A stretch of 21,225 nt of DNA, taken from a virus. Of this stretch, positions 2,001-21,225 are shown in pieces (within the stretch, counting starts at the first letter, position 1; every line of letters starts with the position of its first letter). A program made the translations under genes and the position numbers. A model generated the notes under the pieces. It saw nothing but the letters and a program-made list of their open reading frames with translations, was not told the DNA's origin and did not search any database. Where the stretch lies: the IMG/VR virus record IMGVR_UViG_3300048814_000012, positions 1 to 21,225 of that record; one strand, given 5' to 3'.

Positions 2001-2012
2001 AATAGTTGTCTC

Positions 2013-2098
2013 CTATTTTTCGTGAGGAGTGATTCCTCCTCTATACTCCAACCTATCTTACTTTTATACAGTTGTCAAGTAGACCTAACTTAACCTGC
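2013..2098 (-). promoter_or_regulatory. Promoter P1 (capsid group) with conserved leader
   Basis: On the minus strand, TTGACA (2078-2073), 17 bases, TAGGTT (2055-2050), then a leader containing GAGGAGG. A box TATATGCAGGT ends 14 bases before TTGACA; the same box at the same distance precedes P2. In this copy GAGGAG (2041-2036) can pair with CTCCTC (2029-2024), hiding the conserved ribosome site. A second site, AGGAGA (near 2013), serves the gene. Confidence 0.8.
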
Positions 2099-2114
2099 AT
2101 ATATACTAGATAGG

Positions 2115-4056: not shown

Positions 4057-4273
4057 TAGGATTACCTCCTTTGAGGTACTCCACAGCATTTGCTTTAAGG
4101 CTAGCTGGCGCTGCTTTCCAACACGGAAGCGTAGTCCAATGTTCTATCACCGACCGGTTAAGCATCCCCATAGGACACAAACCCTCAAGGGTAGTAACTG
4201 GCTCGTGCGTGTAGGGATCCCTGACATCCCATGTTCCGACTTTAATCCAATCTTCATCGAAGTTATTATCCAT
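4049..4273 (-). CDS. Hypothetical protein (74 aa)
   Basis: Begins MDNNFDEDWIKVGTWDV and ends KGGNPNG. It has two Cys, several Trp, and no recognised domain or membrane segment. ATG 4273 overlaps the stop of the 930-residue gene in ATGGATAA; its own stop overlaps the next start in ATGGTTAA. Co-transcription with portal and protease genes points to a virion or assembly role, without direct evidence. Confidence 0.6.
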   Translation of the reverse strand: MDNNFDEDWIKVGTWDVRDPYTHEPVTTLEGLCPMGMLNRSVIEHWTTLPCWKAAPASLKANAVEYLKGGNPNG

Positions 4274-8452: not shown

Positions 8453-8718
8453 TGCTTACGCCTCTTAATGCGTCGTATGGGGTGTGGAGTCCTAGGTAAC
8501 GTGACCATAAGTGGCGCCCCACCATACACAAACTCTGCAGCCACCACAAGAAACACTGCGCCCACCACCAGTGCTACGCCCAATCCAGCGATTATATATA
8601 CACCCGTCGTACACATGGCAGCACCGAAAACCTCTAGCCACTGGCCGAGATTGATAGGTAACTTGTTGGAGGGGCGCTGAAAGTCAGGGAGCTTCAGCCA
8701 TTGCCTGAAGGTTAACAT
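8449..8718 (-). CDS. Small membrane protein (89 aa)
   Basis: Residues about 27-68 form one long or two short hydrophobic segments (EVFGAAMCTTGVYIIAGLGV followed by ALVVGAVFLVVAAEFVYGG). The C-terminus is highly basic (RRIKRRKQ), so it should face the cytoplasm. TAAGGAG lies upstream of ATG 8718. It sits between terminase large subunit and portal and ends in an ATGA overlap with the portal start. No holin family is recognised; a role at the membrane during assembly or lysis is only a guess. Confidence 0.65.
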   Translation of the reverse strand: MLTFRQWLKLPDFQRPSNKLPINLGQWLEVFGAAMCTTGVYIIAGLGVALVVGAVFLVVAAEFVYGGAPLMVTLPRTPHPIRRIKRRKQ

Positions 8719-8727
8719 ACGGGCTCC

Positions 8728-10347
8728 TTAGGTGAACTGATTTGGCGCACAATAGTCTGCTTCCGTAATGAGCTTTGGCTCTCGTATCCCACGCTGAGGT
8801 CCGTGGTCCTGTTCCTCGTAGTCTGTAAGAAATGTAACCTCTGCATACTCCTGCTCAAGGCCCAACTCTTTAGCTCTTTGCAGCGCCATCACGGTGGCAA
8901 CTGCAGCGTCCACATACCCAGTGGACTTCTGATTAACTTTGGTAATGCGGGGCTGCATCGGATCCTTTACCCAGGCGTTGGCCATATGCCGAGCTAGTTC
9001 AGGGTCACCATCATGGTCCAATAATCCCCGCTGTATGTCCTCATAAAGGCGCTGTGTAGACTCAATCATGAGCGCACCTCGCTGAGGAAACGTCACAATG
9101 GGTATTCCCTCGTCCTGAAGTACCTCTAGGTCCGACACCCATAGGGCCGGGTCGCACGCTACTTCGAGAACTTGGTAGTATCCGCACGTTTTACGAAGCT
9201 GATTCATTACCTCGACCCGTGGTACCCGCCATGTGTCGTCCTTGTATGGTTTCTCCCACAGATGTACCATATGAACAAAGGGAACAGGCCGGTCCACAGT
9301 GACAGCGATAAGGACAGTAGCGTCGCCATCATAGCTCCCATCGAACCCCAAAACGACACGATCATGGGCAGGAATATTGTACCCATCTTGGTTGACTAAA
9401 GAGGCCCACAATCCCTGCGGCAGCCAGCGCTCGATGTCCACGAGCACCACCTGATTGAAGTAGAAACGCTTAGCAACATACTCAGGAGTCTCAGGGTCTT
9501 GTATCTCCTGATACAGACGCTCTTCATCCACCCAGTAGGAGTCACCTTTGGCAGTCCTAATAGCCTTGGTAACCTCATCGTGGCTCGTTAAGTCTTGTAC
9601 TTCCGGCGCCTCAAGGTTGTCGTACCATACTCCGTCGATCTCACCCTTCTCAGTGATGGCGGTGTATGTAGACTCAGCTACCGATCCTTCGCCGGGCTTA
9701 TGAGCGTTCGTAATCTCAAGTGTTCTGCCGGACCCGTCCCTAGCCTTTGCAATATTACGCCGGATGACTCGTGCCATCTCGACGCCTTCGTTGTTATGAA
9801 GCCAGTGGTGCGTTTCGTTGAGAATGCAGAAGCTCGGACGGGGACCTTCAAGCGCTCTTGGGCTAGATGTGACAGCTTTGATGACACCTTTACCACCTCG
9901 AACGTATATGATAGTCTTACCGAGATCGACGTGAAACTCTTTCTTGAAAGACGTACTAATCATGCCGGGAAATAGACTAGTGGTGTTGCCGGTTTGCTCC
10001 TCGGATACCGCTGCAATCTGTATGAGTGGCATCGGATGTTGTATCCCAATAGGATACCCGTTGGCGTCCCAACCGCCAAACCGACAAGGACCACAAGCTT
10101 CTATTAATGAGAAAGTCGCCAACAGCGGATCTTTTCCCCAGCCTTTGCAACGGCGGATGACACCACGGCGATACGTAAACTTGCCGTTGTCATCTATCCC
10201 ATACCACACGAGGACCATTCTCGCTTGCTCTGGTGTGTACTTCCACGGAGTGCCAGCGTCCGGGCCGTCCGGCTGTAAAATCCAACGTGTGGCCCAGTCT
10301 AAAATACCCCAACCAAGGGTTCTGTTTTCAGCCGGCAACTGATACAA
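8728..10347 (-). CDS. Terminase large subunit
   Basis: 539 residues; the DNA-packaging motor and nuclease. The start is probably TTG at 10347, with AAGGA 5 bases upstream. The N-terminal ATPase shows a Walker A-like RCKGWGKD at about 67-73 and a Walker B-like FCILNETHHW at 173-182. The C-terminal RNase H-like nuclease supplies acidic residues in GFDGSYDGDAT (Asp336), VACDPALW (Asp399) and GYVDAAVATVMAL near 490. The SPRALEGPRPSF segment is typical of actinophage terminases. It follows the collagen-like gene by about 15 bases. Confidence 0.94.
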   Translation of the reverse strand: MYQLPAENRTLGWGILDWATRWILQPDGPDAGTPWKYTPEQARMVLVWYGIDDNGKFTYRRGVIRRCKGWGKDPLLATFSLIEACGPCRFGGWDANGYPIGIQHPMPLIQIAAVSEEQTGNTTSLFPGMISTSFKKEFHVDLGKTIIYVRGGKGVIKAVTSSPRALEGPRPSFCILNETHHWLHNNEGVEMARVIRRNIAKARDGSGRTLEITNAHKPGEGSVAESTYTAITEKGEIDGVWYDNLEAPEVQDLTSHDEVTKAIRTAKGDSYWVDEERLYQEIQDPETPEYVAKRFYFNQVVLVDIERWLPQGLWASLVNQDGYNIPAHDRVVLGFDGSYDGDATVLIAVTVDRPVPFVHMVHLWEKPYKDDTWRVPRVEVMNQLRKTCGYYQVLEVACDPALWVSDLEVLQDEGIPIVTFPQRGALMIESTQRLYEDIQRGLLDHDGDPELARHMANAWVKDPMQPRITKVNQKSTGYVDAAVATVMALQRAKELGLEQEYAEVTFLTDYEEQDHGPQRGIREPKLITEADYCAPNQFT

Positions 10348-10362
10348 TGCTTTCCTTTCGGG

Positions 10363-10650
10363 TTAAAATGTAAATAGCATAGATGAGTGTTGAGCCGGTG
10401 GTGGTGCAGTTAACCACCCCCCGCCTGAAGCACCCGTAGCGCCGGGAGGGCCAGAGGCACCCGTAGCGCCAGAGGCACCAGTTGTGCCGGCGCCGCCTCC
10501 GCCTCCGGCTGCGTCTACCCACTCAGTACCATTCCATTGGTATGTATTACTGTCCGCTGTAATAGCATATGCTGGTGTGCTGCTAAGGGGAGGAATCTCA
10601 AGCCCAGCCTTAACGGGAGCAGTGAACAGGTAGAGCCGATCTACTTCCAT
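10363..10650 (-). CDS. Small collagen-like protein
   Basis: 95 residues. Residues 1-47 form a small domain ending SNTYQWNGTEWVDA, a motif common near phage fibre repeats. Residues 58-75 are six Gly-X-Y triplets (GAS GAT GAS GPP GAT GAS) flanked by poly-Gly, then a Pro-rich tail. AAGGA lies before ATG 10650. The position between the two terminase genes is unexpected for a fibre or decoration protein. Collagen-like repeats in phages usually occur in surface-exposed trimeric proteins, so a virion surface role is likely but unproven. Confidence 0.7.
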   Translation of the reverse strand: MEVDRLYLFTAPVKAGLEIPPLSSTPAYAITADSNTYQWNGTEWVDAAGGGGGAGTTGASGATGASGPPGATGASGGGWLTAPPPAQHSSMLFTF

Positions 10651-10703
10651 TCAATCCTTCGAATCCAAAACCTGGCATTAGTTTGCCTTTCTACTCCGTT
10701 GCG

Positions 10704-11159
10704 TTACGCCGCCACTGGCGCAACAGGTACTAGTCGTAGTCCTTGGTAACTCTCTTGGATAGCTGCCTTAACAGCTTCCTCTGAATCAGTCTTTTCCAGC
10801 TCTATACGCATCCGGCGTCGGTCGCCCTCAGTTACTCCGAACCTAGCAAGCTGCGAGAGGCAAGCGTTAACTGCCGTGAAAGATATCTGGCCAGTCATAT
10901 GATTCTCTGAGCGCAGAGATAGGTCGAGTGTATCGAGAATAATAAAGGCCATAGCCCAGTCAGACGATGTGTAGTACTGCGCCATACCAGACTCAGCTAG
11001 GGATCCCCATAGGCGGATGACGGACTTAGTCCAACCAACCTTTGCCTCATATGGCAGCTCGACCTTACGGTCCTCTGTCTTCTCAATCTCAGCCTTATGA
11101 TTCCTGCGCCTCGTGGTATCTGAACGTCCAGGTACTGGGCCTCTAGTTGCTACGGTCAT
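10704..11159 (-). CDS. Terminase small subunit
   Basis: 151 residues from ATG 11159 (MTVATRGPVPGRSD). An in-frame ATG six codons upstream is less likely because 11159 forms a TAATG junction with the previous stop. The actinophage small-terminase pattern is clear: RGPVPGRSDTTRRRN near the N-terminus, SLAESGMAQYYTSSDWAMA in the middle, and FGVTEGDRRRMRIELEK near residue 120. It recognises the packaging site and recruits the large subunit. The C-terminus ends in a short Pro/Val/Ala tail. Confidence 0.85.
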   Translation of the reverse strand: MTVATRGPVPGRSDTTRRRNHKAEIEKTEDRKVELPYEAKVGWTKSVIRLWGSLAESGMAQYYTSSDWAMAFIILDTLDLSLRSENHMTGQISFTAVNACLSQLARFGVTEGDRRRMRIELEKTDSEEAVKAAIQESYQGLRLVPVAPVAA

Positions 11160-11389
11160 TAGATTACCTGCGCCCAAGAGTCGGTCGCCCAGAAGGAGAT
11201 ATGAGGTTCATTAGTAAAGCCCCAAGAGTTGTCTGGTACATCTGTTACTGGCAGATCATCCACAGCAGCGGCAAAGTAAAAGCCCGCCAGCGAAACTGGT
11301 AGAGAGTCCACGAATAGTTCAGGAGTATCCCAGGCATGAGCTGGGGTCCAAGCTCCACCACTAGGTAGTTCGTCTGTGTATAAGCTCAT
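11159..11389 (-). CDS. Hypothetical protein (76 aa)
   Basis: Begins MSLYTDELPSGG. It is Trp/Phe/Asp-rich and acidic, with repeated short patterns (ELFVDSLPV, AAVDDLPVTD), probably all-beta. GGAG lies 7 bases before ATG 11389. Its TAA overlaps the terminase small start (TAATG). No family recognised. It is co-transcribed with the packaging genes. Confidence 0.6.
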   Translation of the reverse strand: MSLYTDELPSGGAWTPAHAWDTPELFVDSLPVSLAGFYFAAAVDDLPVTDVPDNSWGFTNEPHISFWATDSWAQVI

Positions 11390-11602
11390 TTATTCTCCGC
11401 CTTCTTGAACATAGGATTGGGCAAGTACTTCACATCCGTCCAATACGCTGTCAATCTCATCGAGCAGATCGTCCGTAAAGACCAACAAAGCACTGGCCTC
11501 TGGGGATCTTTGTGACCTTTCGAGCGCCGTAATTTCCTCGGGGGATGAACTAACAGTGTCCTGTACTGCCTGTTCTTTCTGCTCACGGATCAGTACCGTC
11601 AT
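11390..11602 (-). CDS. Hypothetical acidic protein (70 aa)
   Basis: Start set at ATG 11602 (MTVLIREQKEQ...), because it overlaps the TGA of the zinc-knuckle gene in ATGA and has AAGGGG upstream. The longer ORF reaching 11689 runs over that gene in another frame and is rejected. The protein is helical and acidic, with SSPEEITALERSQRSPE followed by VFTDDLLDEIDSVLDG. No known domain is recognised. Confidence 0.6.
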   Translation of the reverse strand: MTVLIREQKEQAVQDTVSSSPEEITALERSQRSPEASALLVFTDDLLDEIDSVLDGCEVLAQSYVQEGGE

Positions 11603-11709
11603 GCCGGCGCCCCTTCGCAGCAAGATTCCTTGTACCCACATTCGGGACAGCGCCAGTGACACTTCGTGGCGTCGTATACATGCCCGCACAAGTCACAAGC
11701 TCGGATCAT
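11599..11709 (-). CDS. Zinc-knuckle mini-protein (36 aa)
   Basis: A 36-codon gene, too short for usual gene callers. It reads MIRACDLCGHVYD, then KCHWRCPECGYKESCCEG. Two CxxC pairs (Cys5/Cys8 and Cys21/Cys24) plus Cys17, Cys30 and Cys31 suit one zinc site, perhaps two. Both ends show coupling: its ATG overlaps the stop of the HNH-like remnant and its TGA overlaps the next ATG, both as ATGA. Purine-rich AGAAAG lies 8 bases before the start. Zinc ribbons of this size usually bind nucleic acid or protein. Function unknown. Confidence 0.6.
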   Translation of the reverse strand: MIRACDLCGHVYDATKCHWRCPECGYKESCCEGAPA

Positions 11710-11798
11710 CGGTTACACTTTCTGCTATTACAAGAACCATGCATTAACTGGAAGTTCTCCATGAGATCAGGACCACCATTAGACAGTGTATCTCTCAG
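11706..11798 (-). pseudogene. HNH endonuclease C-terminal remnant
   Basis: An open frame of 30 codons with no ATG at its head contains SNGGPD, MENFQLMHGSCN and SRKCNR, the second half of an HNH nuclease (GG-D-N-H-CN-K). A TGA at 11799-11801 closes the frame upstream. A DHG-bearing segment lies in another frame around 11813-11830, with spacing that does not fit an intact motif. I read this as a frameshifted gene. Its stop still overlaps the next start (ATGA). HNH proteins near terminase genes often help cos packaging, so loss of this one would matter. Confidence 0.5.
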
Positions 11799-11928
11799 TC
11801 ATGGCGGGCACCATGGTCCTTTCGTATCTGAGTGTCAAACAAAGCTCTATGGTATCCAAACTAGATACAAACAATACCTTCTATGGTCTGTCCCCGGCCG
11901 GGCCCGCCAGGAGAGGACTGGCAGCGCC

Positions 11929-11979
11929 CTGACCAGGGGGAACGCTGCTCCTACTCAGGTGGCAGCGAACGGGGGTCAG
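11929..11979. repeat. Nested GC-rich hairpin
   Basis: CTGACC (11929-11934) pairs with GGTCAG (11974-11979), enclosing CGCTGC (11943-11948) paired with GCAGCG (11962-11967). The loop is 13 bases. TCTGACCAGG recurs at 11991, so CTGACC may itself be a repeated element. A structured site here would suit terminase or another DNA-binding protein. Confidence 0.45.
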
Positions 11980-12091
11980 AAATAATGGCCTCTGACCAGG
12001 ACTTATATAGCAAAACCGGTATCGACATTTAGAGGCCCTACAACCCGTATCCGATTGCTGGTGAGTCGGGCGTGGAAAAACAAACAAGACC

Positions 12092-12115
12092 ATAGGGGTT
12101 AAGGTACCCCCCTAT
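12092..12115. terminator. Hairpin, possible terminator
   Basis: ATAGGGG (12092-12098) pairs with CCCCTAT (12109-12115) across a 10-base loop. No long T run follows on either strand, so termination is uncertain. It could alternatively be a protein-binding palindrome. Confidence 0.3.
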
Positions 12116-12143
12116 AGTATATACATACATATATAGATGACAC

Positions 12144-12279
12144 ATAGATAGAGGTTAACTGAGGTACTATCTATAGAACATAATGACATTCTATAGATGG
12201 TATCATGGTGACCATCTATAGAATGTGGCATGGTATCATGGTGACCATCCTTTATAGATGGTTTCATGGCCACCATCTA
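12144..12279. repeat. Cluster of four inverted repeats
   Basis: (a) ATAGATAG (12144-12151) with CTATCTAT (12167-12174). (b) 12186-12201 with 12211-12226, perfect 16-bp arms around the 9-base spacer ATCATGGTG. (c) ATGGT (12230-12234) with ACCAT (12244-12248), around the same spacer. (d) TAGATGGT (12255-12262) with ACCATCTA (12272-12279), around TTCATGGCC. Units b, c and d share the arm core ATGGT/ACCAT and a 9-base spacer, so they are copies of one element. Strand-symmetric sites like this suit a dimeric DNA-binding protein or cruciforms at an origin. Confidence 0.75.
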
Positions 12280-12454
12280 CAAAAGCCTTATTTTATATGG
12301 TCTTTCTCATGTTGTGTCACAACATAACACAATACATTGTGTGTATGTAGAGATAACCCTTATATAATATGGTGTTTGTATGTGTGTGTGGTTATGTAGG
12401 ATGGTTCATGGCAGTTATGATGACAGTATCCTGACACGATACTTCATACCACTG

Positions 12455-12501
12455 CACACACACAACACACACACACACACAACACACACAACACACACAA
12501 C
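12455..12501. repeat. CA dinucleotide tract
   Basis: About 47 bases of CA repeats interrupted by CAA. A TG-rich stretch (about 12339-12400) upstream is partly complementary. Such tracts are uncommon in phages; they may slip during replication or sequencing. Confidence 0.85.
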
Positions 12502-12530
12502 TATATGCTGTCATTAGCGTTGTCAGACTG

Positions 12531-12637
12531 ACGCCGCCAGAGCGGGCCCCGCTATGTCGAGGGCGTGGAGGGCGAGGACGCCTCCTCGACTCGGGGCAGG
12601 GGAGCCGAGGACGACGACGACGAGTCACACAACACAC
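12531..12637. other. GC-rich anomalous block
   Basis: Composition changes abruptly to GC-rich, with AGCGGG/CCCGCT arms at 12541-12553, GAGGGCG repeats and a GAC run near 12611-12622. The single minus-strand ORF across it gives Arg/Pro-rich then Cys/Val-rich text and is not protein-like. It may be a structured site, a foreign insertion or an assembly artefact. Confidence 0.45.
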
Positions 12638-12675
12638 GACACTATTATTGCGACAGTGTACAAGACACTAGATTG

Positions 12676-12701
12676 ACCATATACCATATGGTGTGTATGG
12701 T
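12676..12701. repeat. Palindrome ACCATATGGT with outer arms
   Basis: A perfect 10-bp palindrome (12683-12692) lies between ACCATA (12676-12681) and TATGGT (12696-12701). The ACCAT/ATGGT core is the one found in the 12186-12279 repeats, so it may be a further copy of that element. Confidence 0.5.
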
Positions 12702-12722
12702 AAGCAACGCCTGCAGATTGCC

Positions 12723-12731
12723 CACCGCTAG
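12723..12731 (+). repeat. CACCGCTAG site 1
   Basis: Exact 9-mer, noncoding, 22 bases beyond the stop codon of the minus-strand HNH fusion gene. It is the leftmost copy; none occurs in 1-12722. Confidence 0.75.
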
Positions 12732-12752
12732 AACTATCTTGCTATAAAGGCC

Positions 12753-13892
12753 TTATATAACGGTGGCTTTATAGGCAACTTTGGCAGTACCGATTTGGTG
12801 AATATCTTCCAGCATTTGTGCCTGATCTAGTTTCTGCAGGGCATCGTGGCCACAGGTCGCAAACCACTTCGGAATCAACACATAAGCTTGCTCACCATAA
12901 TACTCATAAAAACCTTGAGTCATTTCGGTTTGTGCGCCCCAAGTAACATGATCGTACAGATTGCCCTTTGGAATCGGCGTTATTTGCGTTTCACGTTGTG
13001 TCCCGTTAGCGACAGTACAATGTCCGCCTAAGATATTCTGATCCGGTGGACTTAGGAGCGCCCAGGGCTTACTTTCCGCAGAATCAGTTTCTGCAGATTG
13101 TGGCACTTCAAAAGCCCAGTAGAGGCAACCAAAGTTGTAGAGAGCTTGTCTCATAAGGTCATAATCGTTAATATCGACAGTAGCAGCGCCAATAAGTTCA
13201 AATCCCAAAGGATTAGGCTGGGAACACGCCGAGATTACGGTAGAAAGCTGCAATCCGCTGTCAGGACCCCCAGTGAGCTGATAATAGAAGTCGGACGTGA
13301 CCGTATCGCCAGGATACGTATAATCGACGCCAGCAATAAGCGCCCAGATCTGCGCAGCATGTATGATGCCTGCGATAGTACAGTCACCGATACTGTCATT
13401 GCACGCCATAGGATATTGCAGGTTCTCGCCATATCTAAATGGTTTGTCCGTGCTAGGAAGATCCGAAAGTACACCGTATGTAGCCAGAGGACGAATTAGA
13501 TCGGGTATAGTCTCTGCCAGTGCGCCAAACTTACCGAATACTCCACCGCTAGAGTTATTGGCAGTCTTAGGCGCAATACCTACCGATTCTGCCCATGCAA
13601 GATTCTCACTAGCTTTAACCATTTTAACGCCTTTCATCATGTTGCATGTTAGATGAGCTGCTGCGAGGTTATTGTCATTGTCACTGCCACCATTAGTTCT
13701 AGCTATGATATGGTCCACACTATCGGCCCCATATCTACCGCATAGGTAGCATGTATAATTGTCACGCTGTAATATACGAGATCGTGTCACACCCCAACCC
13801 TTAAGGTAAGGTAATGTCACTCCAATGCTAGGACATCTCTCACCGCTAGCATGTACGTTACCACATCGACAGGATCTCGGTAGCCTAGCCAT
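12753..13892 (-). CDS. HNH endonuclease fused to a papain-like cysteine-peptidase domain
   Basis: 379 residues, ATG 13892 in a TAATG junction. Residues 1-20 carry Cys8, Cys10 and Cys20. Residues 40-90 are an HNH nuclease: CYLCG (48-52), SVDHIIARTNGGSD (58-71, catalytic His61), Asn75, and HLTCNMMKG (80-88). Residues about 130-345 resemble a C39/papain-like domain seen in phages: NDSIGDCTIAGIIHA places a nucleophile at Cys171, LGGHCTVANG gives His291, and VTWGAQTEMTQGFYEYYGEQAYVLI (reported in parts: VTWG 316-319, FYEYYGEQAY 328-337) is the family ending. HNH enzymes nick or cut DNA; the peptidase part may be active or only a fold. Third gene of the P2 operon. Confidence 0.78.
   Translation of the reverse strand: MARLPRSCRCGNVHASGERCPSIGVTLPYLKGWGVTRSRILQRDNYTCYLCGRYGADSVDHIIARTNGGSDNDNNLAAAHLTCNMMKGVKMVKASENLAWAESVGIAPKTANNSSGGVFGKFGALAETIPDLIRPLATYGVLSDLPSTDKPFRYGENLQYPMACNDSIGDCTIAGIIHAAQIWALIAGVDYTYPGDTVTSDFYYQLTGGPDSGLQLSTVISACSQPNPLGFELIGAATVDINDYDLMRQALYNFGCLYWAFEVPQSAETDSAESKPWALLSPPDQNILGGHCTVANGTQRETQITPIPKGNLYDHVTWGAQTEMTQGFYEYYGEQAYVLIPKWFATCGHDALQKLDQAQMLEDIHQIGTAKVAYKATVI
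13538..13560. repeat. 23-bp exact repeat, copy A (includes CACCGCTAG site 2, 13544-13552)
   Basis: Identical to 14635-14657. This copy lies inside the HNH fusion gene, encoding the NNSSGGV region on the opposite strand. The CACCGCTAG core is the shared motif; seven flanking bases on each side are also kept, apart from those within the core. Confidence 0.8.
13841..13849 (+). repeat. CACCGCTAG site 3
   Basis: Inside the HNH fusion gene near its start; antisense to it, where it encodes the HASGER segment. Reading frame differs from site 4. Confidence 0.75.
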
Positions 13893-14137
13893 TAGACGAG
13901 TCTACGGCTACGCTTATACGCACAAGGTTCGCAGCGGATAGTGCCTTTGACACAAGTACTGACAAGACAATCGAAGCATAGCCTAGGAGTATTGCTGTAC
14001 TCTAGCCTATTACCGGCATCATAATATTCAGCCTCAGGATCATCCCATTTAGCGTCAGGCGGTCGATACAAGTTAACAGTGTCTTCGTCTTGTTCTAAGC
14101 TAGCAGTAAGACCTTCAGTATCCTCTAAAGATATCAT
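13892..14137 (-). CDS. Small Cys-rich protein, zinc-finger-like (81 aa)
   Basis: An acidic N-terminal half (MISLEDTEGLTASLEQDEDT) is followed by RLCFDCLVSTCVKGTIRCEPC, four to five Cys in CxxC-x4-C-x6-CxxC spacing, and a basic tail YKRSRRLV. This looks like a small zinc site for nucleic-acid or protein contact. ATG 14137 overlaps the previous TGA in ATGA. It is the middle gene of the P2 operon. No family recognised. Confidence 0.65.
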   Translation of the reverse strand: MISLEDTEGLTASLEQDEDTVNLYRPPDAKWDDPEAEYYDAGNRLEYSNTPRLCFDCLVSTCVKGTIRCEPCAYKRSRRLV

Positions 14138-14556
14138 GACACTGGACCTGTCTTAATTAGGGACTTCTTCCAAGCTACGTAATCACCATGAGTCTGCCAT
14201 TTACCGTGAGTGTATTCTTTCAAACACTCACCGCAAAGTCCTTTGACTACCTTAGGTAGTGCGGGCTGACCACAAGCTAAACAGTCCACGAGCGAGGTAG
14301 TTCTACCTGGTTTAGGCGATGTATCCAGCAAGAATGCGCAGATGTTGACAGCCGATTGCAGACTTTTGACTGCCTGTCTAAGCTGTTTGCATATACCTAC
14401 ATCTACCTGCTTGTGAAACGGATCTGGATCACGAGAGTTATTGGGCTGATCATCTCGGGCGAGAATCTCCAGCAAATCACTGTCCTTTATCCTCACCGCT
14501 AGCTTTCGCAGCGTTCTGAGATTATCTAGGACTTCCTGCTCATCGTAGGGTTTCAT
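14134..14556 (-). CDS. Helical protein with C-terminal zinc ribbon (140 aa)
   Basis: Residues 1-85 are helical and rich in Leu, Arg and Asp. Residues about 92-115 hold CLACGQPALPKVVKGLCGEC, two CxxC pairs typical of a treble-clef or zinc-ribbon. First gene of the P2 operon; ATG 14556 overlaps the stop of a 4-codon upstream ORF. The repeated Cys-pair theme runs through all three genes of this operon, hinting at DNA-linked functions. No known family is recognised. Confidence 0.68.
   Translation of the reverse strand: MKPYDEQEVLDNLRTLRKLAVRIKDSDLLEILARDDQPNNSRDPDPFHKQVDVGICKQLRQAVKSLQSAVNICAFLLDTSPKPGRTTSLVDCLACGQPALPKVVKGLCGECLKEYTHGKWQTHGDYVAWKKSLIKTGPVS
14494..14502 (+). repeat. CACCGCTAG site 4
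   Basis: Within the 140-residue gene, antisense. There it encodes the LAV codons of KLAVRIK, a different frame from sites 2 and 3. Confidence 0.75.
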
Positions 14557-14632
14557 GGCGGGCGCATTCCTCCTCTATACTCCAACCTATCATCTGTCAT
14601 ACACTTTGTCAAATGCGATACCGATGACCTGC
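14553..14632 (-). promoter_or_regulatory. Promoter P2 with conserved leader and 4-codon upstream ORF
   Basis: Minus strand: box TATATGCAGGT (ends at 14627), 14 bases, TTGACA (14612-14607), 17 bases, TAGGTT (14589-14584), then GGAGTATAGAGGAGGAAT. The next ATG (14567) begins M-R-P-P-stop, and its TGA overlaps the true ATG at 14556. The ribosome site is well placed for the short ORF, so the main gene may depend on re-initiation. Confidence 0.8.
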
Positions 14633-14634
14633 AT

Positions 14635-14657
14635 ATACTCCACCGCTAGAGTTATTG
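14635..14657. repeat. 23-bp exact repeat, copy B (includes CACCGCTAG site 5, 14641-14649)
   Basis: Identical to 13538-13560. This copy is noncoding, immediately upstream of the conserved box of P2. Confidence 0.8.
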
Positions 14658-14685
14658 CCGGTCCGACACTAGGGTAACGAGAACG

Positions 14686-14960
14686 CCCGTCATCGCTGAG
14701 TCACCACCATCTCTTACATACTGTCAGCTGGGAAGACACCTTCCCATTAGCTACCAGCACATGTGTATTCCTCAAAATCCCTCAAAATCCCTGCCCAGAC
14801 TGCCGGAAAGAAGCAGGTCAGCCCCGTCATCGCTGAGTCACCACCATCTCTTACATACTGTCAGCTGGGAAGACACCTTCCCATTAGCTACCAGCACATG
14901 TGTATTCCTCAAAATCCCTCAAAATCCCTGCCCAGACTGCCGGAAAGAAGCAGGTCAGCC
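14686..14960. repeat. Perfect tandem duplication, 2 x 137 bp
   Basis: Copy 1 spans 14686-14822 and copy 2 spans 14823-14959; all positions I compared are identical. Each copy contains TGGGAAG-ACAC-CTTCCCA, a perfect 7-bp hairpin (14729-14746 and 14866-14883), and an internal direct repeat CTCAAAATCC x 2. Perfect identity suggests recent duplication or active maintenance. Confidence 0.93.
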
Positions 14961-15083
14961 ACTTATGTCAACCTTTAATCCACCATAATCGCACTCTGAC
15001 CTGGGTTTTTTGTCAGATGACCACTATAATCTTCTAAAACACCCTACCTATATATTTATACATATACTAATTAATAGTAGTTA

Positions 15084-15095
15084 TCCTCTAGAGGA
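15084..15095. promoter_or_regulatory. 12-bp palindrome TCCTCTAGAGGA
   Basis: A perfect palindrome in the AT-rich part of the control region, about 85 bases before the -35 of P3. It could be an operator for a dimeric regulator. Confidence 0.4.
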
Positions 15096-15180
15096 AATTA
15101 TTCTGATTTTTAACATTTTTGGCACCTGACCAGCATTTTATCTGTGGTCAATTCTCAGCTGGCACCTCTGACCTGCGGAT

Positions 15181-15224
15181 TTGACAAAAAGCACCGCATC
15201 CGATAGGTTCGTAATTAGAGGAGG
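15181..15224 (+). promoter_or_regulatory. Promoter P3 with conserved leader
   Basis: TTGACA (15181-15186), 17 bases, TAGGTT (15204-15209), then AGAGGAGG ending at 15224. Upstream text CTCTGACCTGCGGAT resembles that before P4. It drives the zinc ribbon and RNA ligase genes. Confidence 0.8.
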
Positions 15225-15234
15225 ATACGTGCCA

Positions 15235-15459
15235 ATGTACGAATGCCCGAACTGCGGAACTACAAAGCCTCATGCGATGAACCAGTGTAAGAGTTGTGGC
15301 TGGCGGACGGCGCCCCGAGTGCGCAGGGTGGCGCCCCGAATGCGCAGGCTGTCGAACTGTCCGAACTGTGGCTTTGACCTTAGACCGAGGAGAGAACGGC
15401 TGTGCGTAGAGCACAATCTGCCTGGTGAATGCCACTACCGTCCACCGCAACACTCCTAA
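15235..15459 (+). CDS. Double zinc-ribbon protein (74 aa)
   Basis: Starts MYECPNCGTTKPHAMNQCKSCGW, one CxxC-CxxC ribbon, and continues to a second half with NCPNCGFDLRP and later Cys near CVEHN and GEC. Between them a basic linker holds an imperfect 21-base tandem repeat encoding APRVRRV/APRMRRL. ATG 15235 lies 10 bases after GAGGAGG; GTG 15229 (4 bases) is possible, and the ORF opens to TTG 15181 inside the promoter. Zinc ribbons with basic linkers often bind nucleic acid; a phage regulator is possible. First gene of the P3 operon. Confidence 0.75.
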   Translation: MYECPNCGTTKPHAMNQCKSCGWRTAPRVRRVAPRMRRLSNCPNCGFDLRPRRERLCVEHNLPGECHYRPPQHS

Positions 15460-15474
15460 CCAGAAAGGACCGCC

Positions 15475-16212
15475 GTGTATAACTTCCCTGATTACCATAA
15501 GATACAAGGGTTGTATAAGCGTAATGATAGGGGCAACTTCATCATTGGTAACTATAGCCTAGACGTATTCCATTATCTTAAGGATGATCTATGGCGCTGG
15601 ACCGAGAAGGTGGATGGTACCAACATACGCATCTACATAGATCCTAAGGTAGAAGCCGTAGGCAGCGATTTCCTTTACGGTGAGCCGGAGATCGCTATCG
15701 GCGGCCACCATGCCAAAAGTCAGATACCTGCGGCATTAGTACAGCATTTGAATGATACCTTTGGAATGCTGCACTTTGATCGCATACAGTCCGCACTCAC
15801 CGGACCAGTAGTGTTGTATGGTGAAGGATACGGAGGTAAGATACAATCAGGACATAGTGTGTATGGATATCCTAAGGAGCAAACGTTCATTCTGTTTGAC
15901 GTATGGGTGCCAGAATATCGCCACCGCTTGGGTGGATATTGGCTGGACTCTGACATTGTACGTGAGATAGCAGATGGGCTTAAGATACCGCACGTTCCTG
16001 CTGCTGTTGTCTGCGGTTCGCCTATTGGCATCGCAACCTTGGAACAGGCAGTGTATGATATACAGTATCACGGTGTACCATCGCAGTTGGGTAGACCTGG
16101 AGCACAGTGTGAGGGTATTGTTGGCACGCCTAAGATACCACTGTTTGATAGAATGGGCCACCGCATCATCACTAAGATAAAGCATAAGGACTTTGACTCT
16201 GCGGGGGTTTGA
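15475..16212 (+). CDS. RNA ligase (Rnl2-like nucleotidyltransferase domain)
   Basis: 245 residues, GTG start at 15475 with AAAGGA upstream. It joins RNA ends or repairs nicked RNA using ATP. The nucleotidyltransferase motifs are in order: TEKVDGTNIRI at 43-53 (motif I, with Lys45 the site of AMP attachment), VVLYGEGYGGKI at 112-122 (motif III), FILFDVWV at 138-145 (IIIa), CEGIVG at 212-217 (IV) and KIKHKDF at 234-240 (V). No long C-terminal domain follows. The stop lies in the -35 of P4. Phage RNA ligases can repair tRNAs cut by host defence; no tRNA or kinase gene is seen in this window. Confidence 0.87.
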   Translation: MYNFPDYHKIQGLYKRNDRGNFIIGNYSLDVFHYLKDDLWRWTEKVDGTNIRIYIDPKVEAVGSDFLYGEPEIAIGGHHAKSQIPAALVQHLNDTFGMLHFDRIQSALTGPVVLYGEGYGGKIQSGHSVYGYPKEQTFILFDVWVPEYRHRLGGYWLDSDIVREIADGLKIPHVPAAVVCGSPIGIATLEQAVYDIQYHGVPSQLGRPGAQCEGIVGTPKIPLFDRMGHRIITKIKHKDFDSAGV

Positions 16213-16252
16213 CAGAGCCGCCGAGGCATGATAGGTTGGAATATAGAGGAGG
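16209..16252 (+). promoter_or_regulatory. Promoter P4 with conserved leader
   Basis: TTGACA (16209-16214), 17 bases, TAGGTT (16232-16237), then AGAGGAGG ending at 16252. Its -35 overlaps the RNA ligase stop codon. It drives the gene at 16260 and probably the long downstream operon. Confidence 0.8.
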
Positions 16253-16259
16253 ACCCGCC

Positions 16260-16571
16260 GTGAATACAGATCCAATCGACGCCCTTTGGGCCAACCCATT
16301 CAGCATCAAAGGTGATACGTCTGCTCAGGACGCTGCGGCCTATCTGGTACTTGAGAAGTACTCAGACGAAACGAAGGCGTTAGCTACCGCCGTAAAAGCC
16401 TTATATTTTGGGGCCTATACACTCCACCAAGAGAATCCTGCCTGTTCACAGTTAGAGCTTTATAAAGGATGTATTGTCACACTAGTGCGAGAAGGTATAA
16501 GCATATATAGTATAGTAGAAGCCAGTAAACTATTGGTCGATGTTTTTGATGCCATACAGGAGGCATCATGA
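16260..16571 (+). CDS. Hypothetical helical protein (103 aa)
   Basis: GTG start at 16260, chosen because GAGGAGG lies 7 bases upstream; the longer frame begins within the promoter. Begins with MNTDPIDALWANPF. Mostly helical, with one Cys in CSQLELYKGC and another nearby. Ends DVFDAIQEAS. No motif recognised. First gene of the P4 operon. Confidence 0.65.
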   Translation: MNTDPIDALWANPFSIKGDTSAQDAAAYLVLEKYSDETKALATAVKALYFGAYTLHQENPACSQLELYKGCIVTLVREGISIYSIVEASKLLVDVFDAIQEAS

Positions 16572-16626
16572 AAAGGTATAGCAAAAATCTCCTCGGGTGC
16601 CGAGCGTGAATGGAGTCAAATAAATA

Positions 16627-16947
16627 ATGGACCTTAACGACCTGATATCTCCTGACACTCCACTAGCAGTATCTGACGATGATGAAGATACTCGGCCAAT
16701 CATGACCGGTATAGATGTTATGAGCTGGTCAAAGCATATAATCAGCAAGGTGGATGAGTCTATAGAGCTGTTAACCAAGCAGTACCGTTGTGCGCCAGAA
16801 GTAGTCCTAGCTCTATACGGTAATGTTGGCGTGTACGCAATAAATATTGCAGAAGCTATACATAGCAAGTTAAAAGCTGAGATTGTGGAATCTCCACCGC
16901 TAGCTGTTTCAGCACGCTATAGAGATCCTAACAGGGGGTACCTGTAA
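16627..16947 (+). CDS. Hypothetical protein (106 aa), acidic N-terminus
   Basis: Begins MDLNDLISPDTPLAVSDDDE, then a helical stretch (SWSKHIISKVDESIELLTKQ) and a hydrophobic section (VVLALYGNVGVYAINIAEAI), probably a soluble amphipathic helix. TAA overlaps the next ATG as TAATG. No family recognised. CACCGCTAG site 6 falls in its SPPLA codons. Confidence 0.6.
   Translation: MDLNDLISPDTPLAVSDDDEDTRPIMTGIDVMSWSKHIISKVDESIELLTKQYRCAPEVVLALYGNVGVYAINIAEAIHSKLKAEIVESPPLAVSARYRDPNRGYL
16895..16903 (+). repeat. CACCGCTAG site 6
   Basis: Within the 106-residue gene; read as CCA-CCG-CTA-G (PPLA), a frame different from sites 7-10. Confidence 0.75.
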
Positions 16948-17261
16948 TGCGGAACGAAGCCGAAGCAGCCATTCTTTGTTATCAGCACGGCATAGGGGAT
17001 GTGCGCACAGAGGACAGCAACCAAGCACTACTTAAGAAAGTGGAACCTGTGATGCGACCTGAGGCGATAGCTCAAGAGATCCTAGCTAGTGAGGACTTTA
17101 TGTGGCTTATGGTGGGTGGCGATGATGTTTGGATTAACTCGCATATCGACGCACTGCGCCCGGCATGGGACGCATACGTAGAGGCAGGCGGCAAGACATA
17201 TGGACATCATATGGATATTTCACGAGAGGAAGATAAAGATGGCACCATTCAAAGTACTTGA
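16947..17261 (+). CDS. Hypothetical protein (104 aa)
   Basis: Begins MRNEAEAAILCYQHGIGDV; the middle contains MRPEAIAQEILASEDFMWL and WINSHIDALRPAW, suggesting a small helical bundle. No motif recognised. It overlaps the next gene by 23 bases. Confidence 0.6.
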   Translation: MRNEAEAAILCYQHGIGDVRTEDSNQALLKKVEPVMRPEAIAQEILASEDFMWLMVGGDDVWINSHIDALRPAWDAYVEAGGKTYGHHMDISREEDKDGTIQST

Positions 17262-17421
17262 AGGAAAGCAGTACCGTTATCGTGATAGTGGCAGAGTGAC
17301 TGTCGCCGCACTGCTGAGCGAACGTGCATTCGTAGCATTCCCCAGGACGGATGGCAAGGTCAAGTATGTATGGGCGAACCTGGCCGATCTGTCCCCTGTA
17401 CGTGGGCGACCCACAAGATGA
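17239..17421 (+). CDS. Small beta-rich protein (60 aa)
   Basis: Start set at ATG 17239 (MAPFKVLEGKQYRY), since GAGGAAG lies 6 bases upstream; the ORF opens 13 codons earlier without a site. Short beta strands and basic residues (RGRPTR tail) resemble a small SH3-like fold, not assigned. Its TGA overlaps the exonuclease ATG in ATGA. Confidence 0.55.
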   Translation: MAPFKVLEGKQYRYRDSGRVTVAALLSERAFVAFPRTDGKVKYVWANLADLSPVRGRPTR

Positions 17422-18212
17422 ACCTCCACCCAGCCATACTACATATAGATATAGAGACATCTCCTAATCTCTGTTGGGTGTGGAATCTATGGGAAGAGAC
17501 AGTACAACTCGAACGCCTCATAGAGGTACAGCGCACACTTAGTTTCGCTGCCAAATGGGATGGCGAGCCAGCTAAGGATATGCAGTTCTATAGCATTCAT
17601 GACTTCGATAAGGGACGGAATACAGTCAAGGCACAAGACCGTATGATAGAGGCCGCTAAGAGCCTGCTCGATGAGGCTGACATAGTGGTGCATTACAATG
17701 GCACCCGGTTCGATATGCCATACCTTAACAGGGAGTTCTATCTTACGAAGCGCACGCCACCCAGCCCATACAAACAAGTGGACCTATACCTCACCGCTAG
17801 AAAGGTATTCAAGTTTCCTTCCAATAAGTTACAGCACATATCCGAGGCGTCCGGTCTAGGCGGTAAGATCTCCAAAGCCGATGGCATTGTGTTCGACCTA
17901 TGGGCTAGGTGCATGGATGGTGACACTGACGCATGGAAGCTAATGCGTAAGTATAACAAACGTGACGTTGTACTAACGGAAGGTGTATATCACCGCATGC
18001 TCCCATGGATTGTGTCTCACCCGAACCTCGGGGCATTCATAGGTGAGCGATGCTGTCCAGCTTGCGGTAGCACACATTTACAAGTACGAGGCTATGCGAT
18101 CCTCAATACAGGACGATACCCGAGGTACCAGTGTATGAACCCACTGTGTGGTAAGTACTCACGAGGTACCAAGAGCGACCAGCGCACGACACTAGTGAAC
18201 ATAGCGACATAG
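17418..18212 (+). CDS. DnaQ-like 3'-5' exonuclease (YprB/RNase H-like) with C-terminal zinc ribbon
   Basis: 264 residues from ATG 17418, which overlaps the previous stop as ATGA. DEDD exonuclease motifs: LHIDIETSP (Asp11, Glu13), VVHYNGTRFDMPYL with Asp99, and KYNKRDVVLTEGVY with Asp183 in motif III. The sequence then ends in a zinc ribbon, CCPACG (212-217) and YQCMNPLCG (237-245). The acidic residues coordinate two metal ions to trim DNA or RNA ends. The zinc ribbon may bind substrate. This exonuclease is separate from the polymerase's own domain at 20538. Site 7 of CACCGCTAG lies in its LTAR codons. Confidence 0.83.
   Translation: MNLHPAILHIDIETSPNLCWVWNLWEETVQLERLIEVQRTLSFAAKWDGEPAKDMQFYSIHDFDKGRNTVKAQDRMIEAAKSLLDEADIVVHYNGTRFDMPYLNREFYLTKRTPPSPYKQVDLYLTARKVFKFPSNKLQHISEASGLGGKISKADGIVFDLWARCMDGDTDAWKLMRKYNKRDVVLTEGVYHRMLPWIVSHPNLGAFIGERCCPACGSTHLQVRGYAILNTGRYPRYQCMNPLCGKYSRGTKSDQRTTLVNIAT
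17792..17800 (+). repeat. CACCGCTAG site 7
   Basis: Within the exonuclease gene, in the YLTAR codons. Confidence 0.75.
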
Positions 18213-18223
18213 ATCGGAGACTA

Positions 18224-18901
18224 ATGACAACCAAGTCCGCACAAGAGTTAGATCCTGTGGTAGCAACGGCACAAGCAGAGGCCATAACAAAGGCCAATCT
18301 CGAAGCTGCTAGAGCTAGCAGGGCCGCTGCCGATAAGACACTACTAGAGATAAAGACTCTCAAGCGCCTTGACGCTGAGCTATATGCTACGGATGCCTAT
18401 AACCTCCGCTATGCTTACGTAGAACCAGTCAATACCAACTCTAGCCTGAAGTGTCAGAATATGCTTTCCCAGTGGCACAGACTCTACCCTACCCGCACTA
18501 TAGAGATTGTCTTTACATCTCCTGGCGGTTCTGTCGTGGATGGCATGGCCTTGTTCGACTACATCAAAGAAATACAGCGTTCCGGTCACACGATAAATAC
18601 TCACGTACTGGGTGTGGCAGCGTCTATGGCTGGCATCTTGTTACAGGTCGGCAACACTCGCAGTATGGCACCCGAGTCCTGGCTCCTTATACACGAGGCT
18701 AGCTTTAGTTCATCCGGTAAGATAGGTGATGTCGAGGACACTACCGAATGGGTTAAGAAAGTATGCGACCGCATCCTCAATATCTTCACCGCTAGGTCTA
18801 CCTGTACCAAGGCATTCATTAAAAAAAATTGGGAGCGCCGAGACTGGTGGGTTAGCGCCGAGGATGCTCTCAAGTATGGCTTCATCGATGAGATCCGATA
18901 G
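18224..18901 (+). CDS. ClpP-like serine protease
   Basis: 225 residues, GGAG before ATG 18224. Residues 1-50 are a helical, Ala-rich extension. The ClpP/crotonase fold follows: FTSPGGSVVDGMAL (97-110, oxyanion region), VLGVAASMAGILL with Ser134 as nucleophile, WLLIHEASF with His157, and RRDWWVSAEDALKYGFIDEI, where Asp207 matches the third catalytic residue. All three appear present. Phage ClpP-like enzymes usually mature heads, but here an S78 protease does that job in the other arm. The role is more likely non-structural or involves host ClpX/ClpC partners. Confidence 0.85.
   Translation: MTTKSAQELDPVVATAQAEAITKANLEAARASRAAADKTLLEIKTLKRLDAELYATDAYNLRYAYVEPVNTNSSLKCQNMLSQWHRLYPTRTIEIVFTSPGGSVVDGMALFDYIKEIQRSGHTINTHVLGVAASMAGILLQVGNTRSMAPESWLLIHEASFSSSGKIGDVEDTTEWVKKVCDRILNIFTARSTCTKAFIKKNWERRDWWVSAEDALKYGFIDEIR
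18787..18795 (+). repeat. CACCGCTAG site 8
   Basis: Within the ClpP-like gene, in the FTAR codons. Confidence 0.75.
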
Positions 18902-18914
18902 AAAGGTACTCCGC

Positions 18915-20027
18915 ATGAGGATAGCTATAGACCTAGATGGTGTGCTATACAACTTCACCGCTAGCCTGTCCGATTACATAGGGCATGCCGTCGGGCAGTG
19001 GTACCCATACCGGCCTAGTTGCTGGGAGTTTTACGAGACAGACTGGGGTATGTCCCTGGCCGAGTATCTGGCATGGTTCGAGCAAGGCGTTAACGCCAGT
19101 TGGATCTTTGTCGTAGGTGCGCCGGCCAAAGGATCTATCGAAGCATTGCACGCCTTGATAGCTAAGGGCCATACTATACACCTAATCACTGACCGCAACG
19201 TGGGCGAGAAGGCTAAGGTTAATACGGCCCTATGGCTTAACGCTTATGGCGTGCCGTACGATACGCTCACTTTCTCCAATGGAAGTAAGGCCAGTCTCAT
19301 CAAGGTAGACCTCGCCGTCGATGACCGGCCTAAGCTGGTTGATGAGTATCGTGCCGCAGGTGTAGAAGCATACTGTATGGGCTTCGATGAGCGCAAGGAT
19401 ATGAAGGCTAATAAGTGGTATATCCCTTATGACTGGGATAACTTCCAGCTCATAGCTGAAGGTACCGAACAACGATACGGAGCTGTTCGGCAGCCAGCAG
19501 ACAATCGAACTCGAGCTCACGTTCCACCCGGAGGCGCTCGGCCGCCTGCTCGCTCGTATCGGCGAACACGATCACAAGATACAAGCATGGCACGCATCGC
19601 CGAGGTGGAGTGCCGGAACGCTAAGCTGGAGTTGCCCTGGACGCCCTCAATGACTAAACAGATACCGATGCCTCTAGTGCGCACCTTTGATACGGGTGCT
19701 ACTCGTGACCTTGATGATACCAAGGACGACCCCGAGGGTTTCTATACGCCTCGTGTCATCCACCGCTTCAATCAGTACATGACCCATAACCGGCACCTTG
19801 CGGATGGTAGTGTCAGAGACTCTGACAACTGGCAGCGGGGTATCCCTCGTGAGGCATATGCGAAGTCCTTATGGCGCCATCACTTGGCCGCATGGACGGA
19901 GCATAGAGCATGGGTAAGTGGAGATTCCGCCTACGATAGGGACCAGCTAGAGGTAGACTTGTGCGGTGTTATCTTCAATGCGCAAGGTATGCTAGACACC
20001 ATACTTAAAGAGAAAGAGTCAGACTAA
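18915..20027 (+). CDS. HAD nucleotidase joined to a MazZ-like (DUF5664) domain; possible frameshifted two-gene region
   Basis: A single open frame of 370 codons from ATG 18915 (GAAAGG 8 bases upstream). Residues 1 to about 182 are a HAD 5'-nucleotidase-like domain: IDLDGV (Asp6, Asp8), HLITDRN (89-95) and LAVDDRPKLV (133-142). Residues about 246-370 match DUF5664/MazZ, a dATP/dGTP diphosphohydrolase family: FDTGATRD, DDTKDD, DNWQRGIP, WRHHLAAW and DLCGVIFNAQ. Between them residues 185-235 read as Arg/Pro-rich junk, while frame 1 (19456-19653) reads as protein, ending TGA in an ATGA overlap with ATG 19650 (MTKQIPMPL). So the natural products may be two proteins. Both enzymes shape nucleotide pools. 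Confidence 0.75.
   Translation: MRIAIDLDGVLYNFTASLSDYIGHAVGQWYPYRPSCWEFYETDWGMSLAEYLAWFEQGVNASWIFVVGAPAKGSIEALHALIAKGHTIHLITDRNVGEKAKVNTALWLNAYGVPYDTLTFSNGSKASLIKVDLAVDDRPKLVDEYRAAGVEAYCMGFDERKDMKANKWYIPYDWDNFQLIAEGTEQRYGAVRQPADNRTRAHVPPGGARPPARSYRRTRSQDTSMARIAEVECRNAKLELPWTPSMTKQIPMPLVRTFDTGATRDLDDTKDDPEGFYTPRVIHRFNQYMTHNRHLADGSVRDSDNWQRGIPREAYAKSLWRHHLAAWTEHRAWVSGDSAYDRDQLEVDLCGVIFNAQGMLDTILKEKESD
18956..18964 (+). repeat. CACCGCTAG site 9
   Basis: Within the HAD domain, in the NFTAS codons just after the catalytic Asp codons. Confidence 0.75.
19456..19653 (+). other. Embedded frame-1 open segment between HAD and MazZ-like domains
   Basis: After a TAG at 19453-19455 this frame is open to TGA 19651-19653 but has no ATG, GTG or TTG. 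From about 19468 to 19590 it reads protein-like (IELELTFHPEALGRLLARIG) with C/G at most third positions, while the long frame there is Arg-rich. It could be reached by a frameshift from the HAD frame, or reflect a sequence indel. Its stop couples to ATG 19650. Confidence 0.45.
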
Positions 20028-20299
20028 TGACAGTAACTAACGATCCTAGTTACGATATTAAGTCTGCTGCTCTGAAGTGGGTACATGAGCTATACGATCA
20101 GGCTAACGCTGCTATACGCTATCTATGTGGAGAAATCGTGTCCTCACAGTTAAAAGAGATGTACTCTATAGAGATCTCTAACGAAGAAGGCCAGGAGATA
20201 TTCAAAGCTGCGCTCATTGATAATACAAATGCCGCACCGTTTCCCACTGATATACTACAGGCGATAGCTAGAGCATTGGGAATAGGAGATGATCTGTAA
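20027..20299 (+). CDS. Hypothetical helical protein (90 aa)
   Basis: ATG 20027 in a TAATG junction. Begins MTVTNDPSYDIKSAALKWVH; the middle is helical (QANAAIRYLCGEIVSSQLKE) and acidic later, ending AIARALGIGDDL. No motif recognised. It is coupled to the MazZ-like gene before and the MazG-like gene after (TAATG), so a nucleotide or replication role is suggested by context only. Confidence 0.6.
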   Translation: MTVTNDPSYDIKSAALKWVHELYDQANAAIRYLCGEIVSSQLKEMYSIEISNEEGQEIFKAALIDNTNAAPFPTDILQAIARALGIGDDL

Positions 20300-20538
20300 T
20301 GACAGACACCACGCATTTAGCAGAGGAGTTAATACAGACGGCTGCGGTAGTTGTAGCGTGGCTTGAAAAGCTGGGCTATACGCAGAATGCTGCGCTTACG
20401 GATATCCGGCACGAGAGATTTGCTCAGGATGAAAAGTGGGGCAATCAGGCGCACAAGCCGAATGGTACATGGCTCGCCATATTGGGCGAGGAGTATGGAG
20501 AAGTGGCAAAGGAACTGCTAGAAGGTGGGCACATTTAA
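20299..20538 (+). CDS. MazG-like protein, apparently rearranged (79 aa)
   Basis: Residues 34-75 match the start of phage MazG-like NTP pyrophosphatases: IRHERFAQDEKWGNQ, then TWLAILGEEYGEVAKELLEG with the metal-binding EExxE (Glu64, Glu65, Glu68). Residues 8-24, AEELIQTAAVVVAWLEK, match the last helix of the same family, which normally comes after the EExxE helix. So the order of the parts appears swapped. Length is short for the family (usually about 110). TAA overlaps the polymerase ATG. These enzymes hydrolyse NTPs or dNTPs to monophosphates; activity here is uncertain. Confidence 0.68.
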   Translation: MTDTTHLAEELIQTAAVVVAWLEKLGYTQNAALTDIRHERFAQDEKWGNQAHKPNGTWLAILGEEYGEVAKELLEGGHI

Positions 20539-21225
20539 TGCAAGTCAATCTGATCGAAACGTTTGCAGAGGCCGAGGCATTCATGTCTTGGCTTGGCGAG
20601 CGCCGACCTGTATTGGCTTGCGATACAGAGACAGGTGGACTGGATTGGTGGCGAGATGAACTACGGCTCGTACAGTTTGGAGACTTTGAGACAGGATGGG
20701 CCATTCCATTCCACCATTGGGGCGGCCTTGCGCTCGATGCCATTGCTCGATACTCTGGCCCTATTACATTTCACAATGCAAAGTTCGATGTCATGTACCT
20801 CACTCATAACGGGGCTAAACTCGAATACGATAGGGTCCATGATAGTCGAGTTATGGCGCATCTCCTAGATCCAAACAAGCCGACAAAGCTGAAGATGCTG
20901 GGCAATAGGTACCTTGGATCCAACAGCGATGAATGGGAAACAAAGCTAGACGCTGCCTTTGCGAAGGGACATTGGGGCTGGGCAACCGTCCCGATTACAC
21001 TGCCGGAGTATTGGGAGTACGCATGTATGGATACAATCCTCACCGCTAGGCTACATGAGCACCTATACCCTAAGCTAACGGGCGCACTGCTCGACATCTA
21101 TGAGATGGAGATAGCAATAGAGCACATCATTATGGACCAAGAGATGCGAGGCATAGCAGTAGACTTGCCCTATAGCATAGAGCAGCGAGCCGTCTATCTC
21201 AAGGCTGCAGACGAGCTAGAGCAGT
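20538..21225 (+). CDS. DNA polymerase I (family A), N-terminal part, exonuclease domain (runs off window)
   Basis: ATG 20538 in a TAATG junction, open to the window edge (229 complete codons). It replicates the phage DNA. The 3'-5' proofreading domain is visible: VLACDTETGGLD (Exo I, Asp28 and Glu30), ITFHNAKFDVMYL (Exo II) and YACMDTILTARL (Exo III). The text then enters the start of the polymerase part, with IYEMEIAIEHIIMDQEMRGI and AVDLPYS, as in family A enzymes. No 5'-nuclease domain precedes it, as in T7-like and many actinophage enzymes. Confidence 0.9.
   Translation, partial: MQVNLIETFAEAEAFMSWLGERRPVLACDTETGGLDWWRDELRLVQFGDFETGWAIPFHHWGGLALDAIARYSGPITFHNAKFDVMYLTHNGAKLEYDRVHDSRVMAHLLDPNKPTKLKMLGNRYLGSNSDEWETKLDAAFAKGHWGWATVPITLPEYWEYACMDTILTARLHEHLYPKLTGALLDIYEMEIAIEHIIMDQEMRGIAVDLPYSIEQRAVYLKAADELEQ
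21041..21049 (+). repeat. CACCGCTAG site 10
   Basis: In the Exo III codons of the polymerase gene (ILTAR). It is the last copy seen before the window ends. Confidence 0.75.

Follow-up and report, generated by a model that had tools for sequence, protein, structure and literature searches.

Stoperators are known from one well-studied mycobacteriophage group. These cluster A phages (L5, D29 and Bxb1, with the repressor gp71) carry 20-30 of the asymmetric 13-14 bp sites per genome, mainly in short intergenic regions of both arms. The sites are aligned with transcription and inactive when reversed, and their consensus varies by subcluster (PMC6550527, PMC9283540). In L5, the early promoter Pleft is located at the extreme right end of the genome (coordinate 51,672), and an operator (site 1) together with seven stoperators lies within 50,397-51,773 (PMC5712189).

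Here we use the stoperators of L5 and cluster A (PMC5712189, PMC6550527) as the comparison base for an array of identical 9-bp sites, CACCGCTAG, in a viral fragment of 21,225 bp (IMGVR_UViG_3300048814_000012, positions 1 to 21,225; hereafter the window). Both sets of sites are asymmetric, similar in length and present in many copies; they lie on one strand along the right arm, are densest at the right tip and differ in consensus among relatives. The genome layout is also like that of L5, with structural genes running one way from one end and early and replication genes running inward from the other.

Nonetheless, the two differ in several respects. The cluster A consensus is GGTGGMTGTCAAG or a subcluster variant, compared with CTAGCGGTG or AATGCGGTG here, and only a GGTG-like part is common to them. 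We count 10 exact copies in the fragment, six in a relative (G004) and 13 copies of a variant, CACCGCAT, in a complete relative (G008). Eight of the ten copies in the window lie within genes (coding fraction 0.81), and the left arm has no cluster of them. While cluster A sites follow transcription, the present ones keep to the same strand over a block of minus-strand genes (12753-14556) and over the plus-strand genes, and the match in orientation would hold only for a putative transcript running inward from the tip. The tip promoter is putative here; promoter-like matches in that region are not above chance.

The original prediction had likened the repeat to stoperators by its length and asymmetry. 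The present site is asymmetric and 13-15 bp long; the consensus is different and the repressor family was not found in the window, G004 or G008. Fixed polarity had been taken as an argument against stoperators and for a replication, recombination or packaging signal, which does not follow because the stoperators of D29 likewise keep to a single strand along its right arm. In this control (stoperator matches with up to two mismatches), 19 of the 21 right-arm matches are on one strand, with eight in the last 1.6 kb; 21 of 30 matches lie outside genes or overlap gene ends, and both arms are occupied.

Sequence, strand and reading frame of the sites

The window contains a minus-strand structural operon (terminase, portal, head protease) and the other features listed in Table 1, and a search of GenBank phage DNA gave no match. 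We consider an actinobacterial host very likely, because the best GenBank relatives of the large terminase are from actinophages (~40% identity) and G008 encodes a WhiB factor. Within the minus-gene block, the 140-aa zinc-ribbon gene is conserved in the window, G004 and G008. The HNH gene (12753-13892) joins the nuclease to a C-terminal domain, phrog_19005, with papain-like Cys/His motifs by eye; its G008 counterpart has no HNH match.

Table 1 Sites and other features of the window
Feature	Coordinates	Strand	Context	Relatives
Large terminase	8728..10347	-	used for genome map placement and for finding relatives	
Noncoding stretch	~12.0-12.7 kb		between structural operon and minus-gene block	
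Putative chromosome end, cos-like	12060..12076	.	coinciding or nearby contig ends	
Conserved noncoding tip	12077..12720	.	CATAGGGG...CCCC hairpin, ATCTATAGA repeats, TGTTGTGTCACAACA palindrome	
Promoter-like TTGACC-17-TATGGT	12673-12701		just before site 1; match not above chance	
Site 1, CACCGCTAG	12723..12731	+	noncoding, 658 bp from putative chromosome end	G004: at 649 and 678 bp from end; G008: at 588 bp as CACCGCATT
Minus-gene block	12753..14556	-	three genes: HNH with C-terminal domain, two zinc-ribbon proteins	
Site 2	13544..13552	+	antisense in HNH gene	G004: aligned place is CACCGCATG
Site 3	13841..13849	+	antisense in HNH gene	
Site 4	14494..14502	+	antisense in 140-aa zinc-ribbon gene	
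Site 5	14641..14649	+	noncoding, upstream of minus-strand promoter-like TTGACA-17-TAGGTT (by eye)	G004: equivalent place also carries site
Weaker relative, CACCGCATC	15192..15200	+	inside promoter-like TTGACA-17-TAGGTT upstream of first plus genes (by eye)	
Early/replication genes	15475..21225	+	RNA ligase, DNA polymerase exonuclease, ClpP-like, nucleotidase, DNA polymerase (cut)	
Site 6	16895..16903	+	plus-strand gene (SPPLAV)	G004: lost
Site 7	17792..17800	+	exonuclease gene (LTAR)	G004: kept
Site 8	18787..18795	+	ClpP-like gene (FTAR)	G004: one change, CGCCGCTAG
Site 9	18956..18964	+	5'-nucleotidase-like gene (FTAS)	G004: kept
Site 10	21041..21049	+	DNA polymerase I-like gene (LTARL)	G004: kept, stretch 69% identical

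All ten predicted copies, from 12723 to 21041 on the plus strand, were confirmed; the minus strand has no copy, nor do the first 12.7 kb. This count covers the window, which ends at 21225, and later copies may exist. Dinucleotide shuffles of the window give a mean of 0.28 copies and a maximum of 2. Allowing one mismatch adds just four sites, where 4.9 in total would be expected; the signal is therefore the exact 9-mer, which is also the top dispersed strand-specific word in the window.

Three copies are antisense within minus-strand genes. Four of the five copies in plus-strand genes share one frame (C ACC GCT AG), the fifth is in another, and plus genes show a mild CACCGC bias, as might be expected if chance or codon usage had produced the array. 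This explanation can already be regarded as refuted by the antisense copies, by the independent array in G008 and by synonymous-codon shuffles, which contain 0.18 genic copies on average and 2 at most and reach the observed 8 in 0 of 2000 trials. The originally proposed signal, strand-polar, at the DNA level and indifferent to gene direction, is borne out in two relatives, one of them complete.

The predicted preference for C or T before the core also holds, with a pyrimidine at 13 of 13 non-redundant sites of the window and G004. In the same sites, positions -6 to -4 are A/T-rich and are followed by a pyrimidine-rich stretch. With its flanks, the site extends over ~13-15 bp, roughly AWTYYYCACCGCTAG. 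Among all 4096 hexamers, CACCGC shows the strongest strand bias when the right arms of the window, G004 and G008 are pooled (17/1, 12/2 and 16/0, respectively), bearing in mind that strand-polarity tests on sites common to the window and G004 are not independent.

Turnover of the array in related genomes

Relatives were found by terminase and exonuclease searches, plus a polymerase match for G008. The exonuclease of G004 (IMGVR_UViG_3300050191_000028, 49.6 kb) is 97% identical to that of the window, and the polymerase of G008 (IMGVR_UViG_3300048503_000003, 58.2 kb) is 60% identical. When the ends of G008 are joined, the portal reading frame is restored, and we therefore consider this genome complete. 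G004 and G008 are the only two independent relatives in which the right arm is present; a further contig (G007) is 99.8% identical to G008.

Both relatives carry a one-strand array, and equal counts on the two strands were not found. The G004 copies of CACCGCTAG are all on the plus strand at 12.55-23.07 kb, which is the homologous 10.5 kb. G008 has no CACCGCTAG; its CACCGCAT copies are on the same strand as the window array with none on the other, and 11 of the 13 are found in the homologous right-end 4.3 kb. Eight CACCGCAT are antisense within the small minus-gene block, compared to 0.64 in synonymous shuffles. The sites of window/G004 and those of G008 have the same core and different last triplets (TAG versus ATT), and the positions are mostly new, whatever the gene direction. 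The predicted absence from the left arm agrees with G001, which extends this arm by 12.9 kb and has one copy only, in a repetitive stretch. The polarity flip at a single point that had been envisaged is seen in none of the records, since they contain no clustered sites beyond these.

At the four coding sites aligned between the window and G004, every one of the 12 third codon positions is conserved (joint probability ~0.009); other window sites are lost or shifted in G004. Sites are gained and lost while the array is retained, suggesting that selection keeps regional density and polarity, not fixed positions.

Viral contigs were also scanned for clustered CACCGCTAG with a pair pattern, yielding >100 loci and no dispersed array of the present type other than that of G004; outside G004, the multi-copy loci examined are clustered repeats. 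Scans with the polymerase, the nucleotidase and the small protein returned known relatives or weak matches only. A k-mer scan of distant phages (Attoomi, Liebe, phiHau3, P318 and a Kutzneria element) found no comparable array. Two further polar words, GTTTACACG and GGCCATCTTC, are repeated in Arthrobacter phage Liebe (L182), and most copies of the latter are ~45-85 bp before gene starts.

Position at a putative chromosome end

Contig G001, which is 99.96% identical to window 1-12065, stops at window 12065, and G002 (terminase 80%) stops at the same base. G005 and G006 stop no more than ~20 bp away, and the ends of two G008-like contigs are roughly 35-90 bp from the corresponding position. Because related contigs stop at or near the same base, we place a putative chromosome end, probably cos, near 12065. 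If the map is read from this putative end, the array would be the right-terminal end of the chromosome. The first site is 658 bp from it in the window, 649 bp in G004 and 588 bp in G008, where site density peaks near the tip. The TGTTGTGTCACAACA palindrome and ATCTATAGA repeats are kept at the tip of the window (12160-12340), of G004 (~12000-12190) and of G008; a search with the palindrome added no relatives.

One tentative reading, possible but doubtful, is that the copies are polar address tags and not a repressor regulon. The tags, which are rare in the sampled bacterial genomes and diverge in sequence between related phages, would be read from the chromosome end inward by a factor travelling on the DNA during entry, repair, replication or packaging. 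The CTAGCGGTG tag is nearly phage-specific among 15 sampled bacterial genomes, which hold related terminases and have 3-27 copies each. The terminase search of hosts retrieved mainly actinobacterial and some Chloroflexi genomes and no close relative; the small minus-block protein, used in a host search, found none. Should a motor or nuclease read the tags, they would represent a novel type of end-proximal DNA signal.

Chi, KOPS and SRS are likewise short, oriented, frame-independent signals at the DNA level. Unlike them, the array is located at one phage chromosome end, is rare in the 15 bacterial genomes and shifts its specificity between relatives. Chi-like sites would stop a RecBCD/AddAB-type nuclease that enters from the right end and degrades phage DNA, and the array adjoins the putative end and is densest there. 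Known Chi sites must face the enzyme entering from the DNA end, and the present core points that way. Its other strand is G-rich (GCGGTG); the orientation is consistent, but would be so by chance in 50% of cases and is read from a putative end. Host Chi is over-represented and oriented in the host, whereas CTAGCGGTG is rare in all 15 sampled genomes, any of which may differ from the true host, and the exact TAG or ATT ending is phage-specific. We therefore consider a Chi-like role unlikely.

A replication signal seems equally improbable. Polar sites acting in origin function, as fork barriers or in the priming of the lagging strand close to a right-arm origin would explain a polarity independent of genes; replication genes are found in the right arm and GC skew switches sign near 15 kb of the window. 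However, the skew tracks gene direction and hence says little, and the sites, instead of forming iteron-like clusters, are spread within genes over 8-11 kb and turn over in position. The terminal location, single polarity and gradient toward the end would also fit pointers for DNA entry or packaging, where a motor would read tags on the end that enters first or is packaged last. This is very unlikely: the first-entering end is deduced from lambda-type phages, and we know of no packaging motor that reads spread internal tags.

Candidate operators and roadblocks

The explanation we prefer, with a probability of about one in two, is that the copies are asymmetric sites for a phage DNA-binding protein and exert stoperator-like control of early transcription. 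A putative sequence-specific binder, most likely phage-encoded, would recognise the ~13-15 bp sites of an array that covers the last 9-11 kb at the right end of an actinophage chromosome. Of these, the copy closest to the tip would serve as operator and the others as roadblocks, effective in one direction, to early transcription running inward (window plus strand), and early genes would probably be switched down. What is observed are the sites with their strand, confinement and positional turnover, and the last triplet that differs between relatives; the binding protein, its roadblock action, the promoter at the tip and the chromosome end are inferred. An unchanged core next to an altered flank would be the expected trace of a co-evolving protein, as between cluster A subclusters (PMC6550527). 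The sites run opposite to the direction in which the minus-gene block is transcribed, which speaks against a stoperator-like reading, as do their mostly genic location, the left arm without clustered sites and the absence of a gp71-type repressor from the window, G004 and G008.

In favour of a true cluster A immunity system (L5-type) with a lost or diverged repressor, the strand pattern is that of D29, and CCACC/TCACC is similar to the sense-strand CCACC end of the L5 site. The consensus differs, however, and the phage repressor that the original prediction had called for was not found: the gp71 family (phrog_357, phrog_3929) is absent at E 10 from the window, G004 and G008, of which only G008 is complete, while the positive control worked. 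Integrase, resolvase and ParA were searched in addition and none was found, so that both the expected binder and lysogeny are missing. A lost repressor would furthermore not preserve ten exact sites or shift specificity. We consider such an immunity system quite unlikely; the array appears stoperator-like in its probable mode of action and not a member of cluster A.

The start-associated sequences of cluster K mycobacteriophages are also asymmetric repeats (~13 bp). They sit just before start codons, whereas the present sites are placed regardless of genes.

The 140-aa protein of the minus block was considered as a candidate binder; its predicted structure (pLDDT 59) is unusable, and its profile search gave weak zinc-ribbon matches only. 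We also considered promoters of a single-subunit RNA polymerase, given the CAC...TAG look of the sites; a polymerase of this type was not recognised in the scanned proteins.

If the stoperator-like reading is true, polar genome-embedded roadblocks would also serve lytic growth, through a different protein, in uncultured actinophages without recognisable repressor or integration genes. The TAG and ATT endings on one core provide a ready pair of specificities for finding the binder.

Two further features were observed. The divergent intergenic region of the window contains a ~137 bp tandem duplication (~14683-14960) with four CCTCAAAATCCCT and is flanked, by eye, by a divergent pair of promoter-like TTGACA-17-TAGGTT sequences (14589-14617 on the minus strand, 15183-15212 on the plus strand). 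Type II hammerhead ribozyme arrays are found in the distal arm of G004 (L047 6-102, 1028-1095, 1565-1654 and 2453-2554, with AGTCGAAAC copies at G004 38990-44340) and of G008 (L056 5353-9715, eight matches) and not in the window. Two hammerheads in G004 and three in G008 are above the Rfam gathering score and the others have E <0.02; the arrays may process a long phage transcript.
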